NCBI GenBank assembly: GCA_030655145.1
Contig: JAURWD010000173.1
Location: forward strand, 1-50,721
DNA: 50,721 nucleotides
Source: Ferruginibacter sp.
GTDB taxonomy: Bacteria > Bacteroidota > Bacteroidia > Chitinophagales > Chitinophagaceae
Reading direction: 5' to 3'
Below the pieces are notes generated by a model. The model made no database searches. It worked only from the letters and a program-made list of their open reading frames with translations, and was not told where the DNA came from. A program made the position numbers and the translations under genes. This document shows, in pieces, positions 16,412 to 24,541 of this stretch (position 1 is the stretch's first letter; each line of letters opens with the position of its first letter).

Positions 16412-17182
16412 TTAATTGAGTACACTATTTAAGAATTCTTTAGTAGACCGGTTAAGGTCATTTGTTCCTTCCAGCGCCCGAATGTAGGCGCTTCCAATAA
16501 TGGCGCCGTTTGAAAATTCACAGGCTGCGGAGAAAGTTTCCTTGTCTTTGATTCCAAATCCAACCAGTACCGGGTTCTGTAACTCAAGGCCCTGCAATTT
16601 TTTAAAATAACCGGCCTGGTCGCTGATGACCTTGTTATTACCTGTTGTTGACGAAGAAGAAACAGCGTACAAAAATCCACTGCTCAATGCATCAATTTTC
16701 CGGATACGGGCTTCACTTGTTTCTGGTGTCACCAGGAAGATAAACCGGAGATCATATTTCTCAAACAATGGTTGGTATTCTGTTTCGAATTCATATATCG
16801 GCAGATCGGGCAAGATGAGGCCATCCACTCCTACTTTTGCTGCAGCCTCGCAAAACTCTTCGAGCCCGAATTGTAAAATGGGATTCATGTAGCCCATCAA
16901 TATAACCGGGAGTTGAATGGTTGGCCGCAGCGCTTCCAGTTGCTCAAACAGCACCTGAATGCTCATCCCATTTTCAAGAGCGACCATATTGCTTTGTTGT
17001 ATTACCGGGCCATCGGCCAGGGGATCGCTGTACGGCATTCCAATTTCTACAAGGTCGGCGCCGTTGTCCTGCAAGGATTGCATCACAGGCAATATGCTAT
17101 CCAGGGCCGGGTATCCGGCTGTGCAATACACATTGAGAACGTTGTGCTTTTTTCTTTTAAATAATTCGTCTATCCTGTTCAT
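16412..17182 (-). CDS. trpA: tryptophan synthase alpha chain
   Basis: Cleaves indole-3-glycerol phosphate to indole and glyceraldehyde 3-phosphate; indole is channelled to TrpB. The 256-residue TIM barrel shows the catalytic glutamate and aspartate in DLVEIGMPYSDPLADGP, the segment DGLILPDLP, and a phosphate-binding loop region SSSSTTG and VGFGIKD. The ATG at 17182 overlaps the stop of the upstream acetyltransferase gene by four bases (ATGA), suggesting translational coupling. It is the last biosynthetic gene of the trp operon. Confidence 0.97.
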   Translation of the reverse strand: MNRIDELFKRKKHNVLNVYCTAGYPALDSILPVMQSLQDNGADLVEIGMPYSDPLADGPVIQQSNMVALENGMSIQVLFEQLEALRPTIQLPVILMGYMNPILQFGLEEFCEAAAKVGVDGLILPDLPIYEFETEYQPLFEKYDLRFIFLVTPETSEARIRKIDALSSGFLYAVSSSSTTGNNKVISDQAGYFKKLQGLELQNPVLVGFGIKDKETFSAACEFSNGAIIGSAYIRALEGTNDLNRSTKEFLNSVLN

Positions 17183-17661
17183 ATTTGTTCTATTACCAGT
17201 TCCATTTTTATATCTGACCTCAGGTATTCCGAGTGCCCGACGGGCACCTCGACGAACCCATATTTGCGGTAGAGGTGAAGTGCGGGTAGCAATTTTGTGC
17301 TTGAGTAAAGTATGAGTTTTTTTAACTTCAATTCTTTGGCTTTCGCAATGGCAAATTCCAACATGCGGTTGCCAATTTTTAATCCCTGGAAGTTCTCGGC
17401 TACCGCCATTTTTGCCAGTTCAAATTCCGAATCCAGGGTTTTTAATAAAGCAAAGGTGCCCGCAATTTCATCGTCAAATGTTGCAAAGAAAATATGCCCA
17501 CCAGGTTCAATAAAATACCGGGTGGGATTTTCCAGCATGCGTTGATCAAGCGGCTCGATGGCAAAATATTTTTCGAGCCAGGCATAATTGAGTGCTGCGA
17601 ATTTCGGTGCAAGTTCCTTGCGAAAGGGAATGATCTTTATATGTTGATCGGGCTGGGTCAA
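17179..17661 (-). CDS. GNAT family N-acetyltransferase embedded between trpB and trpA
   Basis: A 160-residue acetyltransferase of the Gcn5-related fold. The acetyl-CoA-binding motif A region is visible around [17 protein letters not shown] (Q/R-x-x-G-x-G/A type, here QGLKIG). A C-terminal motif B stretch [12 protein letters not shown] follows. The preferred start is a TTG at 17661, which overlaps the trpB stop (TTGA) and gives IKIIPFRKE at the usual place for the first strand. The longer frame from 17715 would lie inside trpB. Its stop overlaps the trpA ATG. Both overlaps imply tight coupling with the tryptophan synthase subunits. The acetyl acceptor is unknown. Confidence 0.88.
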
Positions 17662-18869
17662 AGAAAATGTTTCATATAAGTTGCGAGGTCTTTGTCGCCT
17701 CTTCCACTCAGGCAAATAACAACCACATCATCTTTACGGAGACCTAGATTTGGCAGGACAGAAAAAGCGTGTGCCGTTTCCAGCGCCGGGATAATACCTT
17801 CTGTTTTACTCACTTCGAGCGCTGCCTGCAGTGCCTCTTCATCCGTTGCACTCATGAATATGCCACGTCCGCTCGTAAACAGGTGTGCATGCAGGGGGCC
17901 AATACCGGGGTAATCAAGGCCGGCTGAAATGCTGTGTGGCTCAACTACTTGTCCATCGGCGGTTTGCATCAGCAAACTTTTACTACCATGTAGAATGCCG
18001 GGTTTACCTAACTGTGTCGTAGCAGCGCTCATGCCGCTGGTAAGGCCACAACCCGCTGCTTCAACCGCAACCAACTTAACCGCTTCATCATCGAGAAAAT
18101 GGTAAAATGCGCCGGCCGCATTACTGCCGCCACCCACACAGGCGATGACATGCGTTGGTAATTCGCTTCCTGTCTTTTCTAATAATTGTTTTTTGATTTC
18201 TGCGCTTATAACACTCTGGAAACGCGTGACCATATCCGGGTAAGGATGCGGCCCTACAACGCTGCCAATGATGTAATGAGTATCACCCGGGTTGTTGATC
18301 CAGTCCCGGATGGCTTCGTTGGTGGCATCCTTCAAGGTCTTGCTACCGCTAACGGCAGGTATAACGGTGGCACCCAGCATTTTCATTCGTGCAACATTCG
18401 GCGCCTGGCGCTCAATGTCTTTTTCCCCCATGTACACAATACACTCGAGGCCTTTTAGCGCACATACGGTGGCGGTAGCAACTCCATGCTGACCAGCGCC
18501 CGTCTCGGCAATGATCCTTTTTTTACCAAGGCGAATGGCAAGCAAGATCTGCCCGATGGTGTTGTTGATCTTGTGTGCACCAGTATGGCAAAGGTCTTCA
18601 CGTTTCAGGTAAATAGAAGCGCCATATTTAGCACTTAGCCGGGCTGCGTGATAAAGCGGGGTTGGCCTGCCTACATAATCCTTTAACAATGCAGCGAACT
18701 CTTCCTGGAAAGCAGGATCATACATGATCTTCAGGTATTCGTCCTGCAGTTGGCGCACGTTCGGGTACAACATCTCCGGTATGAATGCCCCACCAAATTT
18801 GCCGTAGTAGCCATGTTCGTTAACGCCCCAATTACTTGCCGTCGTCGCTGATTCAATCTCTTTCTCCAT
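17658..18869 (-). CDS. trpB: tryptophan synthase beta chain
   Basis: PLP enzyme that condenses indole with serine to make tryptophan. The 403-residue protein starts at [10 protein letters not shown]. The PLP lysine is K100 in the GAHKIN motif, the catalytic glutamate is E122 in AETGAGQHG, and the PLP phosphate loop is GGGSNAAG. The C-terminal domain with SGRGDKDL is complete. The N-terminus [12 protein letters not shown] is typical of the alpha-interacting TrpB1 class. A 186-base gap separates it from the upstream trpF copy, and it overlaps the GNAT gene downstream. Confidence 0.97.
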
Positions 18870-19055
18870 AATACGTAATTTTCTATCTGCTAACTCTCCG
18901 GGACTGGCCCTGATAAGCAAACTACATTTGTTTTAAAACTGCCAGGCCATGCAACTGGGAGACCAGCATAATTGGCTGAATAATTTCTCGATGAACTTGT
19001 GAAAGATGATTATTAGTCTGGTAGTTCCAACCGATCAATCGATGGCTGTTCCAGC

Positions 19056-19697
19056 TTAATTTTTCTTTAACCCTTGTTTCAATTTCAGCAACAAGGCCAT
19101 GTCTTTTACGCCCGGGCTTTTTTCTACTTTGCTGTTGACATCGATTCCAAAGTAGTCGGGGTGTTTGAAGGATTTTATTTTTGCGGCGTCGTCGACTCCG
19201 ATGCCGCCACTCAAAAAGAAAGGCTTTTCGATTTTGCTTTTCCCGATCAGCTTCCAATCAAACTGGACTCCGGTTCCGCCAGTCTTTCCGTCTTTCGAAG
19301 CGGTATCAAACAAATAATAATCACACACGTCGTCATACTCCGCTACCATTTCATCAATGGATATTGAGCTTAATCCATCATTGATGGAAAACGCTTTGAT
19401 AACTTCAACATCTTCAGAAAGTTGTTCGCAAAGCTCTGGCGTTTCTTTTCCGTGAAGTTGTACCACATCAAGACCGTAGTCTTCAACCGCCTCCATGATC
19501 TCGTCATAATCGGCATCCACAAACACGCCTACTTTTTTCACATCAAAATCCGTTGCCTGCATCTCTTCTTTAGAGATCTTTCCAACCACATACCTCGGGG
19601 AATCTTTATGAAAAATAAATCCTGCGTAATCAATGTTTAATCCATCGAGCTGTTGCAGTTGCTTCAGCTGGGTAATGCCACACACTTTAATATTCAT
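19056..19697 (-). CDS. trpF: phosphoribosylanthranilate isomerase, second copy
   Basis: Catalyses the Amadori rearrangement of phosphoribosylanthranilate to CdRP in tryptophan synthesis. The 213-residue TIM barrel keeps the catalytic cysteine in KVCGIT (C6), the SPRYV stretch, VQLHG, the acid aspartate in LFDTASK, GGTGVQFDW and SGGI. It lies 14 bases after the first trpF copy and aligns with it over the full length, with moderate identity by eye, so the duplication is not recent. Either both are active, or one has shifted substrate. A 186-base gap to trpB follows. Confidence 0.92.
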   Translation of the reverse strand: MNIKVCGITQLKQLQQLDGLNIDYAGFIFHKDSPRYVVGKISKEEMQATDFDVKKVGVFVDADYDEIMEAVEDYGLDVVQLHGKETPELCEQLSEDVEVIKAFSINDGLSSISIDEMVAEYDDVCDYYLFDTASKDGKTGGTGVQFDWKLIGKSKIEKPFFLSGGIGVDDAAKIKSFKHPDYFGIDVNSKVEKSPGVKDMALLLKLKQGLKKN

Positions 19698-19711
19698 TTG
19701 CTTCTCTTTAG

Positions 19712-20341
19712 TTATTGTAATTGTTGACTGAATTTTTTAATTGCGTCCATATCCTTCACGCCGGGCATCACTTCGAAGCGACTGTTGATATCAATGGCGA
19801 ACAAGGCTTTTGCTTCCGGGAGTGTTTCAAAAGTTTTTAATTGTTCTACATCTGCCGGCTCTATACCGCCACTCAAAAAATAGGGTTTTCCAACCAGCAC
19901 ATTCTGAAGTTTTCCCCAGTTGAATTTTTTACCTGTACCGCCATACCCCGCTCCTTCCGTATCAAACATGAACATATCGCAAACATCCATGTACTCTTTA
20001 ATGCGCCAGCCGATGTTATCTGAATCACTGATCCTGAATGCCTTTACAACAGAAATATAATCAGCGATCTTTTCACAGTAGCGGGCAGATTCATCGCCAT
20101 GTAACTGCACCATGTGCAACCTGCACTCATCCACCATTTGCAACACTTCTTCAACTGAAGCATTTACAAACACGCCTACTTTATTTACATTATTTTCTTT
20201 CTTGATCTGGTTTGTCGTCATGTGCCGCAAGACATACCGGGGAGATTTTGGATAAAAAATTAAACCGGCGAAGGCTGCTCCTACTTCAGGCAACATAGCC
20301 ATCTGCTCCTCCTGCGTAATACCACAGACTTTTATTCTCAT
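19712..20341 (-). CDS. trpF: phosphoribosylanthranilate isomerase, first copy
   Basis: The 209-residue TIM barrel has the TrpF signature: KVCGITQ with catalytic C6, KSPRYV, VQLHGDE, the acid aspartate in MFDTEG, GGTGKKFNW and the phosphate-loop SGGIEP. Its ATG at 20341 overlaps the trpC stop by four bases (ATGA), so it is the copy most tightly integrated in the operon. It sits directly before a second trpF. Family role: step three of tryptophan synthesis from anthranilate. Confidence 0.95.
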   Translation of the reverse strand: MRIKVCGITQEEQMAMLPEVGAAFAGLIFYPKSPRYVLRHMTTNQIKKENNVNKVGVFVNASVEEVLQMVDECRLHMVQLHGDESARYCEKIADYISVVKAFRISDSDNIGWRIKEYMDVCDMFMFDTEGAGYGGTGKKFNWGKLQNVLVGKPYFLSGGIEPADVEQLKTFETLPEAKALFAIDINSRFEVMPGVKDMDAIKKFSQQLQ

Positions 20342-21132
20342 GTTATGCTTTTGCTTTTTAGTTGTTCAACAAACCTGGCAAAAGCAATCGTTGGATCCGC
20401 TTGTTTCATAAAGTTCTCACCAATGAGAAAACCTTTAAAACCTGCGTCCCTAAAAGTACAAATAGTTTCTACATCATGAATGCCGCTTTCGGCAATTTTG
20501 ATTTTGTTCGCTGGTATCTTTTTACTGAGTTCAATGGATCGCTGAATGTCGACCACGAAGGTTTTCAGATCGCGGTTGTTAACGCCGACAATTTCCGTCT
20601 CGTCGCAGATATGTGCTAACTCCTCTTCGTTATGAATTTCAAGTAGCACCTCCAGGTTAAGGGAAGTCGCGAACCTGGCTAGCTCTTTTACCCGATCCGG
20701 GGAAAGACAGGCAGCAATCAAGAGAATGACATCGGCACCCATTGCCCTGGCTTCCGAAACCTGGTACTCATCGATCATAAAATCCTTGCGCAGGATCGGG
20801 ATATTGTTAAAGCGGGCAGCCGCGATATCAGCAACAGTTCCGCCAAAAAAATGTTCATCCGTCAATATCGATAAGCAGCTGGCGCCATTGGCTGTATAAG
20901 CTCGGGTTACTTCAGCTACATCCGCGGTGTCATTGATTATTCCTTTCGATGGAGAACGGCGTTTAAATTCCGCGATGATGCCTGTCTTTGAATCGTCATT
21001 CAGTAACTGTTTCAACGAAATAATATCACGATCATAAAATTTCCCATTCTTCAATTCATCGAAAGGCACCCGTTCTTTGGCTTGGGCTACTTCGATTTTT
21101 TTATGTTCTATGATGGTATCTAAAATGTTCAT
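20338..21132 (-). CDS. trpC: indole-3-glycerol phosphate synthase
   Basis: Closes the indole ring by decarboxylating CdRP. The 264-residue single-domain TIM barrel shows the catalytic stretches AEFKRRSPSKG, LRKDFMIDEYQV and VGVNNRDLKTF, the glutamate-bearing IAESGIHD, and the phosphate-binding FLIGENFM. It is not fused to TrpF, unlike in enterobacteria. It begins 97 bases after trpD and overlaps the first trpF by four bases. Confidence 0.97.
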   Translation of the reverse strand: MNILDTIIEHKKIEVAQAKERVPFDELKNGKFYDRDIISLKQLLNDDSKTGIIAEFKRRSPSKGIINDTADVAEVTRAYTANGASCLSILTDEHFFGGTVADIAAARFNNIPILRKDFMIDEYQVSEARAMGADVILLIAACLSPDRVKELARFATSLNLEVLLEIHNEEELAHICDETEIVGVNNRDLKTFVVDIQRSIELSKKIPANKIKIAESGIHDVETICTFRDAGFKGFLIGENFMKQADPTIAFARFVEQLKSKSIT

Positions 21133-21229
21133 GTTGTCGGAAATTCAAAATGGATGGGTTATGGTTAGTGAATGCTATTGAATAAGGATCCAGCTTTTCT
21201 AAATCTAATGAAGCGGGAATACCTATCTC

Positions 21230-22216
21230 CTACCCGCAAAGCTTCTCTAATACCCGCAATGCTTTTCCACTTTCAAGGCTCTCCACTGCAAGCTGGTAAC
21301 ACTCATCATAATCCCCATACTTACAGGTACAACTAAGGGCCATGGCAGAGTTTGCAAGCACTACCGCGTTTTGCGCCCAGGTTCCATTGCCTTTTAAAAT
21401 GGATACAAATATTGTTGCCGCATCTTCGGCGGTGTCTCCACCATAAATGTCTGAAGCGCTCACCGTGCGTTTACCAAGTGTCTCCGCGCTTAAGATCTGT
21501 TCCCCTTTATTGGTGATGACCTTTGTATCACCCGTGAGGGAGATCTCATCGTATCCATCCAGGCCATGAATAATGGTAAAGTTGCTCTTGGCATCCTGCA
21601 GGAGATAATTATAGATCCGGGCCATCTCGAGGTTGTAAACCCCTACCAACTGGTATTTGGGAAAAGCGGGATTTACCATTGGCCCCAGCATATTAAAAAA
21701 AGTGCGTACGCCGAGATTTTTGCGAATCGCCCCAACGGCTTTTAACGCCGGGTGAAACAATGGCGCGTGTAAAAAACAAATGTTGGTTTCGTTGATCTCG
21801 CGTTGAAGACTACTGGTGTCATTTTTAAACTTGTAGCCCAGTTGCTCCATAACATTACTGGATCCGCTGATGGAAGTAGCACCGTAGTTTCCATGCTTCG
21901 CGACCTTGTTTCCTGTACCGGCAACAATGAAGCAACTCAGGGTAGAAATGTTGAAGGTATTTTTTCCGTCGCCACCGGTTCCAACAATATCCATGACCTC
22001 GAGGCCATCGAGATTTACAGCCACACAAAGTTCCAATAAAGCATCACGGAAACCCTGCAGTTCCGCGATGGTGATACTGCGCATAAGGTATACTGTTATA
22101 AAGGAAGCGAGCTCGCTTTCATTGTACACCCCTCTCGAAATATTTAGTAACACTTCCTTTGCTTCGTCGCGGGAGAGTGACTTATGTTCAAATAAATAAT
22201 TAAGGATCTTTTTCAT
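21230..22216 (-). CDS. trpD: anthranilate phosphoribosyltransferase
   Basis: Transfers phosphoribose from PRPP to anthranilate. The 328-residue protein has the PRPP-binding glycine motif GTGGDGKNTFN, the KHGNYGATS anthranilate and diphosphate-site motif, and the later NMLGPMVNPA stretch. The N-terminal helical domain and the large alpha/beta domain are complete. It starts 60 bases after trpG and is not fused to it. Confidence 0.97.
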   Translation of the reverse strand: MKKILNYLFEHKSLSRDEAKEVLLNISRGVYNESELASFITVYLMRSITIAELQGFRDALLELCVAVNLDGLEVMDIVGTGGDGKNTFNISTLSCFIVAGTGNKVAKHGNYGATSISGSSNVMEQLGYKFKNDTSSLQREINETNICFLHAPLFHPALKAVGAIRKNLGVRTFFNMLGPMVNPAFPKYQLVGVYNLEMARIYNYLLQDAKSNFTIIHGLDGYDEISLTGDTKVITNKGEQILSAETLGKRTVSASDIYGGDTAEDAATIFVSILKGNGTWAQNAVVLANSAMALSCTCKYGDYDECYQLAVESLESGKALRVLEKLCG

Positions 22217-22276
22217 TACAACCAGTATTTAGGTTTTGTTGAGCGGGTTAAATGTCTGCAAGGCTGAAGTGTATGG

Positions 22277-22846
22277 TTAGGCTCCCAGCCAATTGCGCAG
22301 CATTTGTTCACCGCCCGGTGTGAGTACGCTCTCCGGGTGAAACTGCACGCCCTGCACATCGTAGGTTTTATGCTGCAGTGCCATGATGAAACCGTTGTCA
22401 TCCCTTGCAGTCACTTCCAACTCCTCGGGAAATTCAAGATCACTCACGATCCATGAATGGTAGCGACCTACCTCAATTTTTTCGCCCATTCCCTTCAGGA
22501 TCGGCGCGTTTTGATTTAAGATATTGATTGGTGTTGCAATGCCATGGTACACACTGGTAAGGTTTTCCAGGTCGGCTCCAAAAGCCTCCCCGATTGCCTG
22601 GTGACCTAAACAAACGCCAAGAATAGATTTCGTTGCGGCGTATTGCCGGATCAATGGCAACAACAATCCAGCCTCCTGCGGAATACCTGGCCCGGGTGAA
22701 AGAATGATCTTGTCGTATGCCTCCACCTCATCAAGCGTGATCTTATCATTACGACAAACCGTTACTTTCTCATGCATGATCTTTTCTACAAGATGAACGA
22801 GGTTGTAAGTAAAAGAATCGTAGTTGTCGAATACCAGTATTCTCAT
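22277..22846 (-). CDS. trpG: anthranilate synthase component II (glutamine amidotransferase)
   Basis: Provides ammonia from glutamine to TrpE. The 189-residue class I amidotransferase begins at MRILVFDNYDSFTYNLVH. The nucleophile cysteine is in GVCLGHQAIGEAFG, and the histidine-glutamate pair of the triad is in VQFHPESV near the C-terminus. The ATG at 22846 follows the trpE stop with a one-base gap, which supports 1:1 coupling. It could also serve folate synthesis as PabA, as many TrpG proteins do (known for the family, not shown here). Confidence 0.95.
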   Translation of the reverse strand: MRILVFDNYDSFTYNLVHLVEKIMHEKVTVCRNDKITLDEVEAYDKIILSPGPGIPQEAGLLLPLIRQYAATKSILGVCLGHQAIGEAFGADLENLTSVYHGIATPINILNQNAPILKGMGEKIEVGRYHSWIVSDLEFPEELEVTARDDNGFIMALQHKTYDVQGVQFHPESVLTPGGEQMLRNWLGA

Positions 22847-22847
22847 G

Positions 22848-24278
22848 TTAAATATTTTGTGCCAATACAATGGCTTGTTTTAAAGCGTTCAATTTATTGT
22901 TCACTTCCTGCAATTCACTTTCTGGTTTGCTTGCAGCGACTACTCCGGCGCCAGCCTGGTAAACGAGCGTATTGTTTGCGCTGAGAAAAGTACGGATCAT
23001 GATCGCATGATTGCAACTTCCATCAAAACCCATGCTTCCGATCGCGCCGCCATAATAGCCCCTGCCGGTTGGCTCATTCTCGTTGATCAGTTGCATCGCC
23101 TTAAATTTTGGTGCACCACTCAAGGTTCCCGCTGGAAAACTTACCGCAAGTAATTTGAACGGGTTTGTTTCTTCCCGCACCTTTCCAACAACTTCACTTA
23201 CCAGGTGAATCACATGAGAATAGTAATTGACTTTTTTAAATTGTGTAACCTCCACCTCGGTGCACATGCGGCTGAGGTCATTCCGTGCCAGGTCAACCAA
23301 CATCACGTGTTCGGCATTTTCCTTCACATCATTTTCAAGTTGAATTGCCAGCGCTTCATCAGTCTTATCATTTCCAGTGCGCTTGAAGGTGCCCGCAATC
23401 GGGTGAACAATTGCTTTACCATTGTTCACGATCAACTGGCTCTCCGGTGAGGAACCCATGAGTTTATAATCACCGTAATCAAAATAAAAAAGATACGGGC
23501 TTGGGTTAATGCTTCTTAAAGCACGATACACATTGAATTCGTCGCCGTTAAATGGTTGTTCAAACCTGCGACTTAAAACGATTTGAAAAACATCACCCCG
23601 CATGCAACTGGCAATGCCTTTTTTTACGATATCGATGTATTGTGTATCTGTAAGATTGGAGGTTTCCGCCCCAACAGGCGAAAAAGGAAAGGTAGGAACA
23701 TCGCGGCTCTTGATGAGACTTTCAACCGCGTCTACTTCGCTTTCGATGCCGGTGATACTGTTTTCGCATATATACAGTTCATCCTTGAAATGATTAATGA
23801 CTATAACGTACTGGTATAGACGATAACGCATCAGCGGAATTTCCGACGGCTTTAATTGCACATCTTTTAATTCAGGTGCATTCAATTTGATGGTATCGAA
23901 AAATTGAACGGCGTCATAAGCACTATATCCAAAAAGTCCCTGCGCAACATTGATTGGTTTCAAAGCCGGTTCCCTTATCTCGAAGCGCTGCATAAAATTC
24001 CACAAGTGGGTAGGTACGTCTGCCGGATCGGTAATGTGGATCTTCTCCGGCGCCTGGGCCGGGAGTTTAAATTCAATGGTGCTGGTATTGCGGATCTCGA
24101 TACCTGCAATTGCATTGATGCCGATGAAGGAGTAGCTGTTTTCCCCGGCATGAAAGTCTGCACTCTCGAGCAGGATGGTATCCCGGAAACGATCCCTCAA
24201 CCGGAGGTAAATACCAACGGGGGTGTAAACATCTGCAAGCAATTTTTTTGAACTGGTTCGAATCTCAATTTTTTTCAT
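22848..24278 (-). CDS. trpE: anthranilate synthase component I
   Basis: Converts chorismate and ammonia to anthranilate, the committed step to tryptophan. The 476-residue protein has the N-terminal LLESAD motif and the NPSPYLFYF motif that form the tryptophan feedback site in characterised TrpE proteins. It is therefore probably feedback-inhibited. The C-terminal chorismate-binding domain is complete: GSSPE, HPIAGTFKRTG, DLARNDLSR, FPAGTLSGAPK and GAIG. It is the first structural gene of the operon, about 110 bases downstream of an attenuator hairpin. Confidence 0.97.
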   Translation of the reverse strand: MKKIEIRTSSKKLLADVYTPVGIYLRLRDRFRDTILLESADFHAGENSYSFIGINAIAGIEIRNTSTIEFKLPAQAPEKIHITDPADVPTHLWNFMQRFEIREPALKPINVAQGLFGYSAYDAVQFFDTIKLNAPELKDVQLKPSEIPLMRYRLYQYVIVINHFKDELYICENSITGIESEVDAVESLIKSRDVPTFPFSPVGAETSNLTDTQYIDIVKKGIASCMRGDVFQIVLSRRFEQPFNGDEFNVYRALRSINPSPYLFYFDYGDYKLMGSSPESQLIVNNGKAIVHPIAGTFKRTGNDKTDEALAIQLENDVKENAEHVMLVDLARNDLSRMCTEVEVTQFKKVNYYSHVIHLVSEVVGKVREETNPFKLLAVSFPAGTLSGAPKFKAMQLINENEPTGRGYYGGAIGSMGFDGSCNHAIMIRTFLSANNTLVYQAGAGVVAASKPESELQEVNNKLNALKQAIVLAQNI

Positions 24279-24387: not shown

Positions 24388-24417
24388 AAAAAGCCCCAAC
24401 ACATTGTGTCGGGGCCT
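24388..24417 (-). terminator. trp attenuator terminator hairpin
   Basis: On the minus strand GCCCCGACAC pairs with GTGTTGGGGC (24415-24406 with 24402-24393, one G-U pair) around a three-base loop and is followed by TTTTTC. It lies 31 bases after the leader-peptide stop and before any structural gene, so it acts as a conditional terminator. Its 5' arm contains CGACACA (24411-24405), which is perfectly complementary to UGUGUCG at 24447-24441 just after the leader stop codon. That gives a mutually exclusive anti-terminator. Confidence 0.88.
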
Positions 24418-24447
24418 GGATATTTTAATCAATAGCATAGCGACACA

Positions 24448-24501
24448 TCAAAGAATTGAGTGCCACCACCAACCATTGCTATTTAAAATTGCTTTTGTCA
24501 T
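24448..24501 (-). CDS. trpL: trp operon leader peptide (three consecutive Trp codons)
   Basis: A 17-codon ORF (MTKAILNSNGWWWHSIL) encodes three tryptophans in a row (codons at 24471-24463) and ends 31 bases before an intrinsic terminator upstream of trpE. It is too short for standard gene finders. An in-frame ATG at 24531 would give 27 residues but lies upstream of the predicted transcription start. The sequence AAUAGC just before the Trp codons (24483-24478) is complementary to GCUAUU at 24436-24431, providing a plausible 1:2 pause hairpin. Stalling at the Trp codons would mask it and let the anti-terminator form. The mechanism is inferred from the E. coli trpL model. Confidence 0.88.
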   Translation of the reverse strand: MTKAILNSNGWWWHSIL

Positions 24502-24510
24502 TTGTTGCTG

Positions 24511-24541
24511 CAAAGATGTGGAGGAAATCATTCATAACAAA
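24511..24541 (-). promoter_or_regulatory. trp operon promoter (-33 and -7 boxes)
   Basis: The minus strand has TTTG at 24541-24538, a 19-base spacer, and CATCTTTG at 24518-24511. The Bacteroidota consensus is TTTG-N19-TAnnTTTG, so there is one mismatch (T to C). Transcription would start near 24504-24507, only a few bases before the leader-peptide ATG at 24501. Confidence 0.65.

Follow-up and report, generated by a model that had tools for sequence, protein, structure and literature searches.

The DNA upstream of trpE in a Ferruginibacter sp. contig (JAURWD010000173.1) very probably encodes a classical ribosome-mediated transcription attenuator of the trp operon. The window, i.e., the whole stretch of DNA analysed, spans 50,721 nucleotides, and the attenuator parts are located on its minus strand, in a 417-nt intergenic stretch upstream of trpE (Table 1). 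An earlier note on this DNA had already offered this reading, which is now borne out by the order and spacing of the parts, by the conservation of the Trp codons, by the co-variation of two helices and by folding under a ribosome mask. The 17-codon open reading frame (ORF) with its three consecutive TGG codons lies where the earlier note had placed it, and the intrinsic terminator it had described ahead of trpE is a hairpin of 12 pairs with a 3-nt loop, followed by a T run. The two complementary elements from which it had built an antiterminator are both present: UGUGUCG (region 2) adjoins the leader stop codon with no gap, whereas CGACACA (region 3) lies inside the 5′ arm of the terminator, and the helix between them co-varies in 28 leaders. 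A second, longer in-frame start for the leader ORF exists upstream of the likely promoter.

Table 1. Coordinates of the leader parts, the trp genes and other features of the window.
Feature	Position	Strand	Basis or remark
Candidate −33 promoter element TTTG	24538..24541	minus	Sequence; 19 nt upstream of the −7 element
Candidate −7 promoter element CATCTTTG	24511..24518	minus	Sequence; ends 9 nt before the leader ATG
Leader peptide ORF, 17 codons, MTKAILNSNGWWWHSIL	24448..24501	minus	ATG at 24501, stop TGA 24450-24448
Three adjacent Trp codons TGGTGGTGG	24463..24471	minus	Sequence and conservation
Region 1 GUGGUGGCACUCAA	24456..24469	minus	Minimum-energy fold; partner in the 1:2 hairpin 24451-24437; overlaps the Trp codons
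Region 2 UGUGUCG, antiterminator 5′ arm	24441..24447	minus	Sequence, co-variation and mask folding
Region 3 CGACACA, common to antiterminator (2:3) and terminator (3:4)	24405..24411	minus	Co-variation
Intrinsic terminator hairpin AGGCCCCGACAC-AAT-GTGTTGGGGCTT	24391..24417	minus	Sequence and folding; T run to 24388
AAUAGC and GCUAUU	24483-24478 and 24436-24431	minus	Region 1 and partner as proposed in the earlier note
trpE, anthranilate synthase component I, first operon gene	22848..24278	minus	TIGR00564, 406 bits (curated cut-off 518)
Rest of the operon, trpG to trpA	16412..22870	minus	Models and gene order
trpG	22870-22277	minus	
Two tandem TrpF (phosphoribosylanthranilate isomerase) model matches	20341-19712 and 19697-19056	minus	Below curated cut-offs
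Small acetyltransferase-like gene	17715-17179	minus	Overlaps both neighbouring listed ORFs
Bacteroidales small SRP RNA	26863-26757	minus	RF04183, 91.9 bits

In the operon, trpE is followed by trpG, trpD, trpC, two trpF-like genes, trpB, an acetyltransferase-like gene and trpA. TrpD, TrpC, TrpB and TrpA score above their curated cut-offs, whereas TrpE and both TrpF score below those of their best models and were named because of best match and gene order; the name trpE is thus backed by its operon context, though the score is below the TIGR00564 cut-off. Judging from the gene spacing, trpE to trpA would be transcribed as one unit. One of the two tandem trpF-like genes may have a changed role. 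The acetyltransferase-like gene between trpB and trpA matches rimI and PaiA weakly, far below their cut-offs. The same strand of the window also carries a small SRP RNA of the Bacteroidales type.

Of 5000 dinucleotide-shuffled versions of the 417-nt intergenic stretch, 6 contained a short ORF with three adjacent Trp codons on either strand, and TGGTGGTGG occurs a single time in the 50.7-kb window, both strands counted. Folding energies of the 32-nt terminator and the 123-nt leader correspond to z = −5.3 and z = −5.6, respectively, relative to shuffles. Conservation weighs much more heavily than these shuffle statistics as evidence for the leader. With the window TrpE as query, a contig search gave at least 80 loci, and TrpE matched 109 of the 147 genomes sampled from this family, 106 of which provided loci; three Ferruginibacter sp. 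loci (L003, L004 and L005, with 82, 81 and 79% identity, respectively) stand near the top among the matches listed. Upstream of trpE, a short ATG-initiated ORF with adjacent Trp codons is found at 173 of the 184 related loci with a TrpE start, near-duplicates included, so that the Trp codons, whose retention in related Chitinophagaceae the earlier note had proposed as a check, are indeed kept. These leaders comprise 160 distinct sequences, reduced to 142 representatives by thinning. The remaining 11 loci include L042, which has no upstream DNA, and L132, in which WWW is read from a GTG start. A leader with one Trp codon, e.g., MNRNYTNNGWHFISDKG, occurs at eight loci (L069, L075, L077, L169, L079, L080, L081 and L163) on seven distinct contigs, as L077 and L169 share one; by eye, these leaders keep GGGG-CCCC complements followed by a terminator. 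The last of the 11, L182, has no Trp leader upstream of trpE.

Within the genus sample, TrpE was matched (1e-60) in 31 of 59 genomes, and the leaders were read at 35 loci, i.e., 30 from genus genomes and five near loci from the contig search, two of them identical to genus ones. Adjacent Trp codons are present at 32 of these 35 loci; by eye, L210 reads W-I-W and L212 W-C-W, and the leader at L197 has no Trp codons. No TrpE match at 1e-60 is seen in 28 of 59 genus and 38 of 147 family genomes, incomplete genomes included, which suggests that the trp pathway may frequently be lost in the genus and the family. Of 166 leaders, 132 have an Asn residue three codons ahead of the Trp run, encoded by AAT in 93 and AAC in 39, and co-variation of this codon with downstream bases is not clear in the gapless 95-sequence set described below (highest z, 2.8).

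Co-variation was analysed in alignment A1, which contains 28 distinct leaders from the window's genus and its nearest kin and in which the cells count relatives, not events. The 2:3 helix is paired in 88.2% of the cells, compared with at most 48.8% for slid partners, and has 18 both-side changes versus 4.9 in shuffles, a number reached by 0 of 500 shuffles. The 3:4 helix is paired in 94.6% of the cells (slid partners, at most 48.9%), with 28 both-side changes versus 8.7 in shuffles, again reached by 0 of 500. Pairs with both-side changes number 3 in the 2:3 helix versus 1.4 in shuffles (52 of 500 reach 3) and 4 in the 3:4 helix versus 2.3 (29 of 500 reach 4), and further pair types in A1 are not above shuffles in either helix. 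With region 2, the base at column 114 forms U-A in 14 sequences and C-G in 13; with region 4, it forms A-U in 12 sequences and G-C in 10. It co-varies with its partner in the antiterminator as well as with that in the terminator and therefore bears the mark of two alternative helices. Consistent with the proposal in the earlier note that the 5′ arm of the terminator would also form the antiterminator, the two mutually exclusive stems, to be sought in related Chitinophagaceae, are both conserved and both co-vary in these 28 leaders. Among all representatives, the antiterminator complement beats mononucleotide shuffles (p < 0.05) in 97 of 141, and a scan finds the terminator, a second hairpin and then a T run, in 141 of 142. 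The median distance from the end of this hairpin to trpE is 46 nt. Both this T run and this distance argue against translational attenuation, in which the leader hairpins would gate ribosome access to trpE instead of causing termination, and we consider that reading extremely improbable.

In the minimum-energy fold, the 1:2 stem joins GUGGUGGCACUCAA, running from the Trp codons onwards, to UUGAUGUGUCGCUAU. This helix is paired in 75.0% of the A1 cells, compared with 37.6–54.5% for slid partners and 73.1% in shuffles (1 of 500), and its co-variation score is reached by 8 of 500 shuffles; co-variation is weak here because the Trp codons hardly vary. The earlier note had instead assigned region 1 to AAUAGC, pairing with GCUAUU. 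Both sequences are in place, but their co-variation is not above shuffles, and their pairing (73.8%) equals that of shuffles (73.5%), though it exceeds that of slid partners (26.2–64.3%). This pair was thus rejected as the main 1:2 stem; it could still form an outer extension of that stem.

How the position of a ribosome affects the choice between the helices was modelled by mask folding, with a footprint assumed to reach 15 nt upstream and 13 nt downstream of the first A-site base and with the probability of the 2:3 helix, P(2:3), computed for a transcript ending just past region 3. With this footprint, region 2 is masked by a ribosome at the stop codon, but not by one at the Trp codons. In the window, P(2:3) is 0.96 with the ribosome at Trp1, Trp2 or Trp3, and 0.0 with the ribosome at the stop codon; without a ribosome it is also 0.0, region 2 being held upstream at 0.86. 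These values agree with the earlier claim that stalling frees the antiterminator and that completion of the peptide covers its 5′ arm. When sequestration of the whole terminator 5′ arm is taken as the measure, the window gives 0.74 for the stalled, 0.44 for the stop and 0.05 for the ribosome-free state, and 7 of 300 shuffles match its stalled-minus-stop difference. Among 135 representatives, the arm is sequestered at 0.70–0.71 with a stalled ribosome, 0.40 at the stop and 0.34 without a ribosome, compared with 0.44–0.48 in shuffled controls. Moving the ribosome from the stop to the second Trp codon changes sequestration by +0.31 in these representatives versus −0.02 in 270 shuffled controls. 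In the full-length window transcript, the terminator wins at equilibrium for every ribosome position, and the choice must therefore fall during transcription. The E. coli trp leader likewise relies on the order of folding during transcription.

From this anatomy, we infer how the ribosome would stall, how transcription would terminate in the cell and how tryptophan would alter the outcome. Translation of the 17-codon peptide by a ribosome would accompany transcription of the leader by RNA polymerase. Under a shortage of charged tRNA-Trp, the ribosome would stall on UGG UGG UGG and cover region 1, leaving region 2 free to pair with region 3; the terminator would thus be blocked, and trpE and the following genes would be transcribed. 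When charged tRNA-Trp is plentiful, the ribosome would reach the stop codon and cover region 2, region 3 would pair with region 4, and the transcript would end at the T run after about 115–120 nt. In the absence of a ribosome, the 1:2 hairpin would hold region 2, so that termination would be the default.

The sequence of the antiterminator drifts between clades. RNAalifold applied to one alignment of 141 representatives returns only patchy structure, probably because the antiterminator differs between clades; separate analyses were run on the genus set and on a gapless 95-sequence set. Across most of the sampled family, common leader endings are WWWHTN..RGL and WWWHTN..SGVL, their final codons carrying a CGGGG that pairs with CCCCG of the terminator; in 111 of 141 representatives, the midpoint of the pairing segment falls 6–15 nt ahead of the last base of the stop codon. 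In the window's genus, by contrast, the leader is mostly shorter, and the antiterminator arm, typically UGUGUCG or UGUGCC, comes after the stop. The antiterminator has changed while the Trp codons, the terminator and the ribosome geometry have stayed, providing a natural experiment in the drift of a switch. In the 95-sequence set, each of the HTN residues is encoded almost always by a single codon (CAT 80, CAC 8; ACA 72, ACT 7; AAC 81, AAT 2), and all three are located in the predicted 1:2 stem, and their conservation therefore probably reflects the RNA rather than the peptide. These data also bear on the very unlikely alternative that the terminator is constitutive or triggered differently and that the Trp-rich ORF has another role, e.g., as a small functional peptide. 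Such a reading would fit a terminator that is strong by itself and an Asn that, being conserved through synonymous codons, looks peptide-like, yet it leaves unexplained why region 2, which is outside the reading frame in the window's genus, co-varies with the terminator arm, and why most sampled relatives have adjacent Trp codons ahead of trpE; moreover, the codon usage of HTN points to an RNA constraint in that set.

The −7 element was matched to TAnnTTTG, which we take to be the Bacteroidota promoter consensus. In 129 of 140 representatives, a −7-like element reaches a score of 5 or 6 of 6, a level also attained in 46% of shuffled stretches, but its position is well defined, with an end 4–9 nt ahead of the leader ATG in 111 of those 129; TTTG located 19–21 nt upstream of it gives 97 hits in relatives. 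Promoter and start site are thus putative assignments. If the −7 element is the promoter, the leader mRNA would probably have almost no 5′ UTR, given how closely this element precedes the ATG. It is conceivable, though unlikely, that the leader acts as a small, nearly leaderless mRNA and that its peptide has a role of its own, as the conserved Asn and the retention of the device in the one-Trp clade might suggest. If this is true, help from the nascent chain in stalling would explain why one Trp codon is sufficient; nascent-chain stalling is known from TnaC. Both the one-Trp clade and the short 5′ end raise testable questions.

Other tryptophan sensors were also considered. The leader RNA might be read by a protein or a tRNA, as in TRAP-type or T-box-type regulation, or a TrpR-like repressor might act, with the leader ORF as an accessory. 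However, no match to PF01371, PF02081 or RF00230 is found at E ≤ 0.001 in the 5.3-Mb genome, positive controls being matched; the T-box model RF00230 has 0 matches at gathering score in this genome, and the Rfam matches to the leader at E ≤ 10 include no T-box or riboswitch. Such a sensor is accordingly most improbable. The window would thus provide a case of ribosome-mediated attenuation in a genome that lacks matches to TrpR, TRAP and T-box.

Beyond the family, 22 of 60 genomes of the class and 15 of 60 of the order contain a TrpE match. Upstream of trpE, WW or W-x-W is encoded by an ORF at 29 of 35 order and class loci, of which L261 and L283 are from genomes already counted and a few (e.g., L290) are doubtful; three of the six loci without a Trp ORF have less than 150 nt upstream. 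By eye, the leaders at L264, L279 and L282 end in VNG or VNS with GUGAACGGC or GUGAACAGC, and a complement around CUGUUCA lies in the terminator arm. A covariance model, R1, was also tried for breadth and set aside: it matches at E ≤ 0.001 in 111 of 198 class and 63 of 119 order genomes, and its matches outside the family look like ordinary terminators because, among the matches listed, they mostly score 30–40 bits, often number several per genome and in some cases lie on both strands of one place.

We found no report of a trp attenuator in Chitinophagaceae in the open-access literature; Lopatovskaya et al. reportedly published a comparative survey of attenuation in 2010, which may cover Bacteroidetes. 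RF01692 is described in Rfam as “Bacteroidete tryptophan peptide leader RNA”, and a table of Weinberg et al. (2010, PMC2864571) lists this motif, Bacteroid-trp, for Bacteroidetes. Of 148 phylum genomes, 13 have an RF01692 match, 11 of them above the cut-off, and all belong to one other family; among 14 control genomes, Bacteroides ihuae alone has one. Under stricter filters, 0 of 98 family genomes, including the window's own, has a match. Below its gathering score of 49 bits, the model gives 30.5–31.5 bits in 3 of 10 loci, and at gathering neither RF01692 nor RF00513 matches any of 20 loci. As in the window, the 8 RF01692 loci inspected all have an upstream peptide with WWW, and by eye their region 2 at the leader stop complements the 5′ arm of the terminator (GUCGUGA with UCACGAC in seven, UCGUGA with UCACGA in L222); the window leader differs in its peptide tail and in its region 2/3 sequence. 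Trp attenuation in Bacteroidota thus extends beyond the group found by the Rfam model.

The best Rfam bit score on the window leader (28.8) comes from the trpB ncRNA motif RF04312, with terminator and spacing aligned, but is far below the cut-off of 59, and the likeness probably reflects only a shared loop-plus-terminator layout. The E. coli model RF00513 (Trp_leader) aligns end-to-end over the leader (24477-24385, 24.9 bits, E 0.003) and reaches 33 bits in L113, both below the cut-off of 41. In E. coli, the trp leader comprises a leader ORF with two Trp codons, followed by the 1:2, 2:3 and 3:4 helices. The window leader has the same order of parts, whereas it contains three Trp codons, not two, in a genome without a TrpR match, and its ORF would seem to start almost at the 5′ end. 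The same architecture is predicted for trp attenuators of Corynebacterium and Streptomyces, in Actinobacteria, in passages of a further study (PMC1262725); the systems described there share double or triple UGG and complementary triples common to antiterminator and terminator, but belong to another phylum and have other sequences. Taken together, the window leader appears, from its sequence, to work like the RF01692 and RF00513 systems while being a scored member of neither model; this kind of switch is already known, and the window leader is a divergent member of it.
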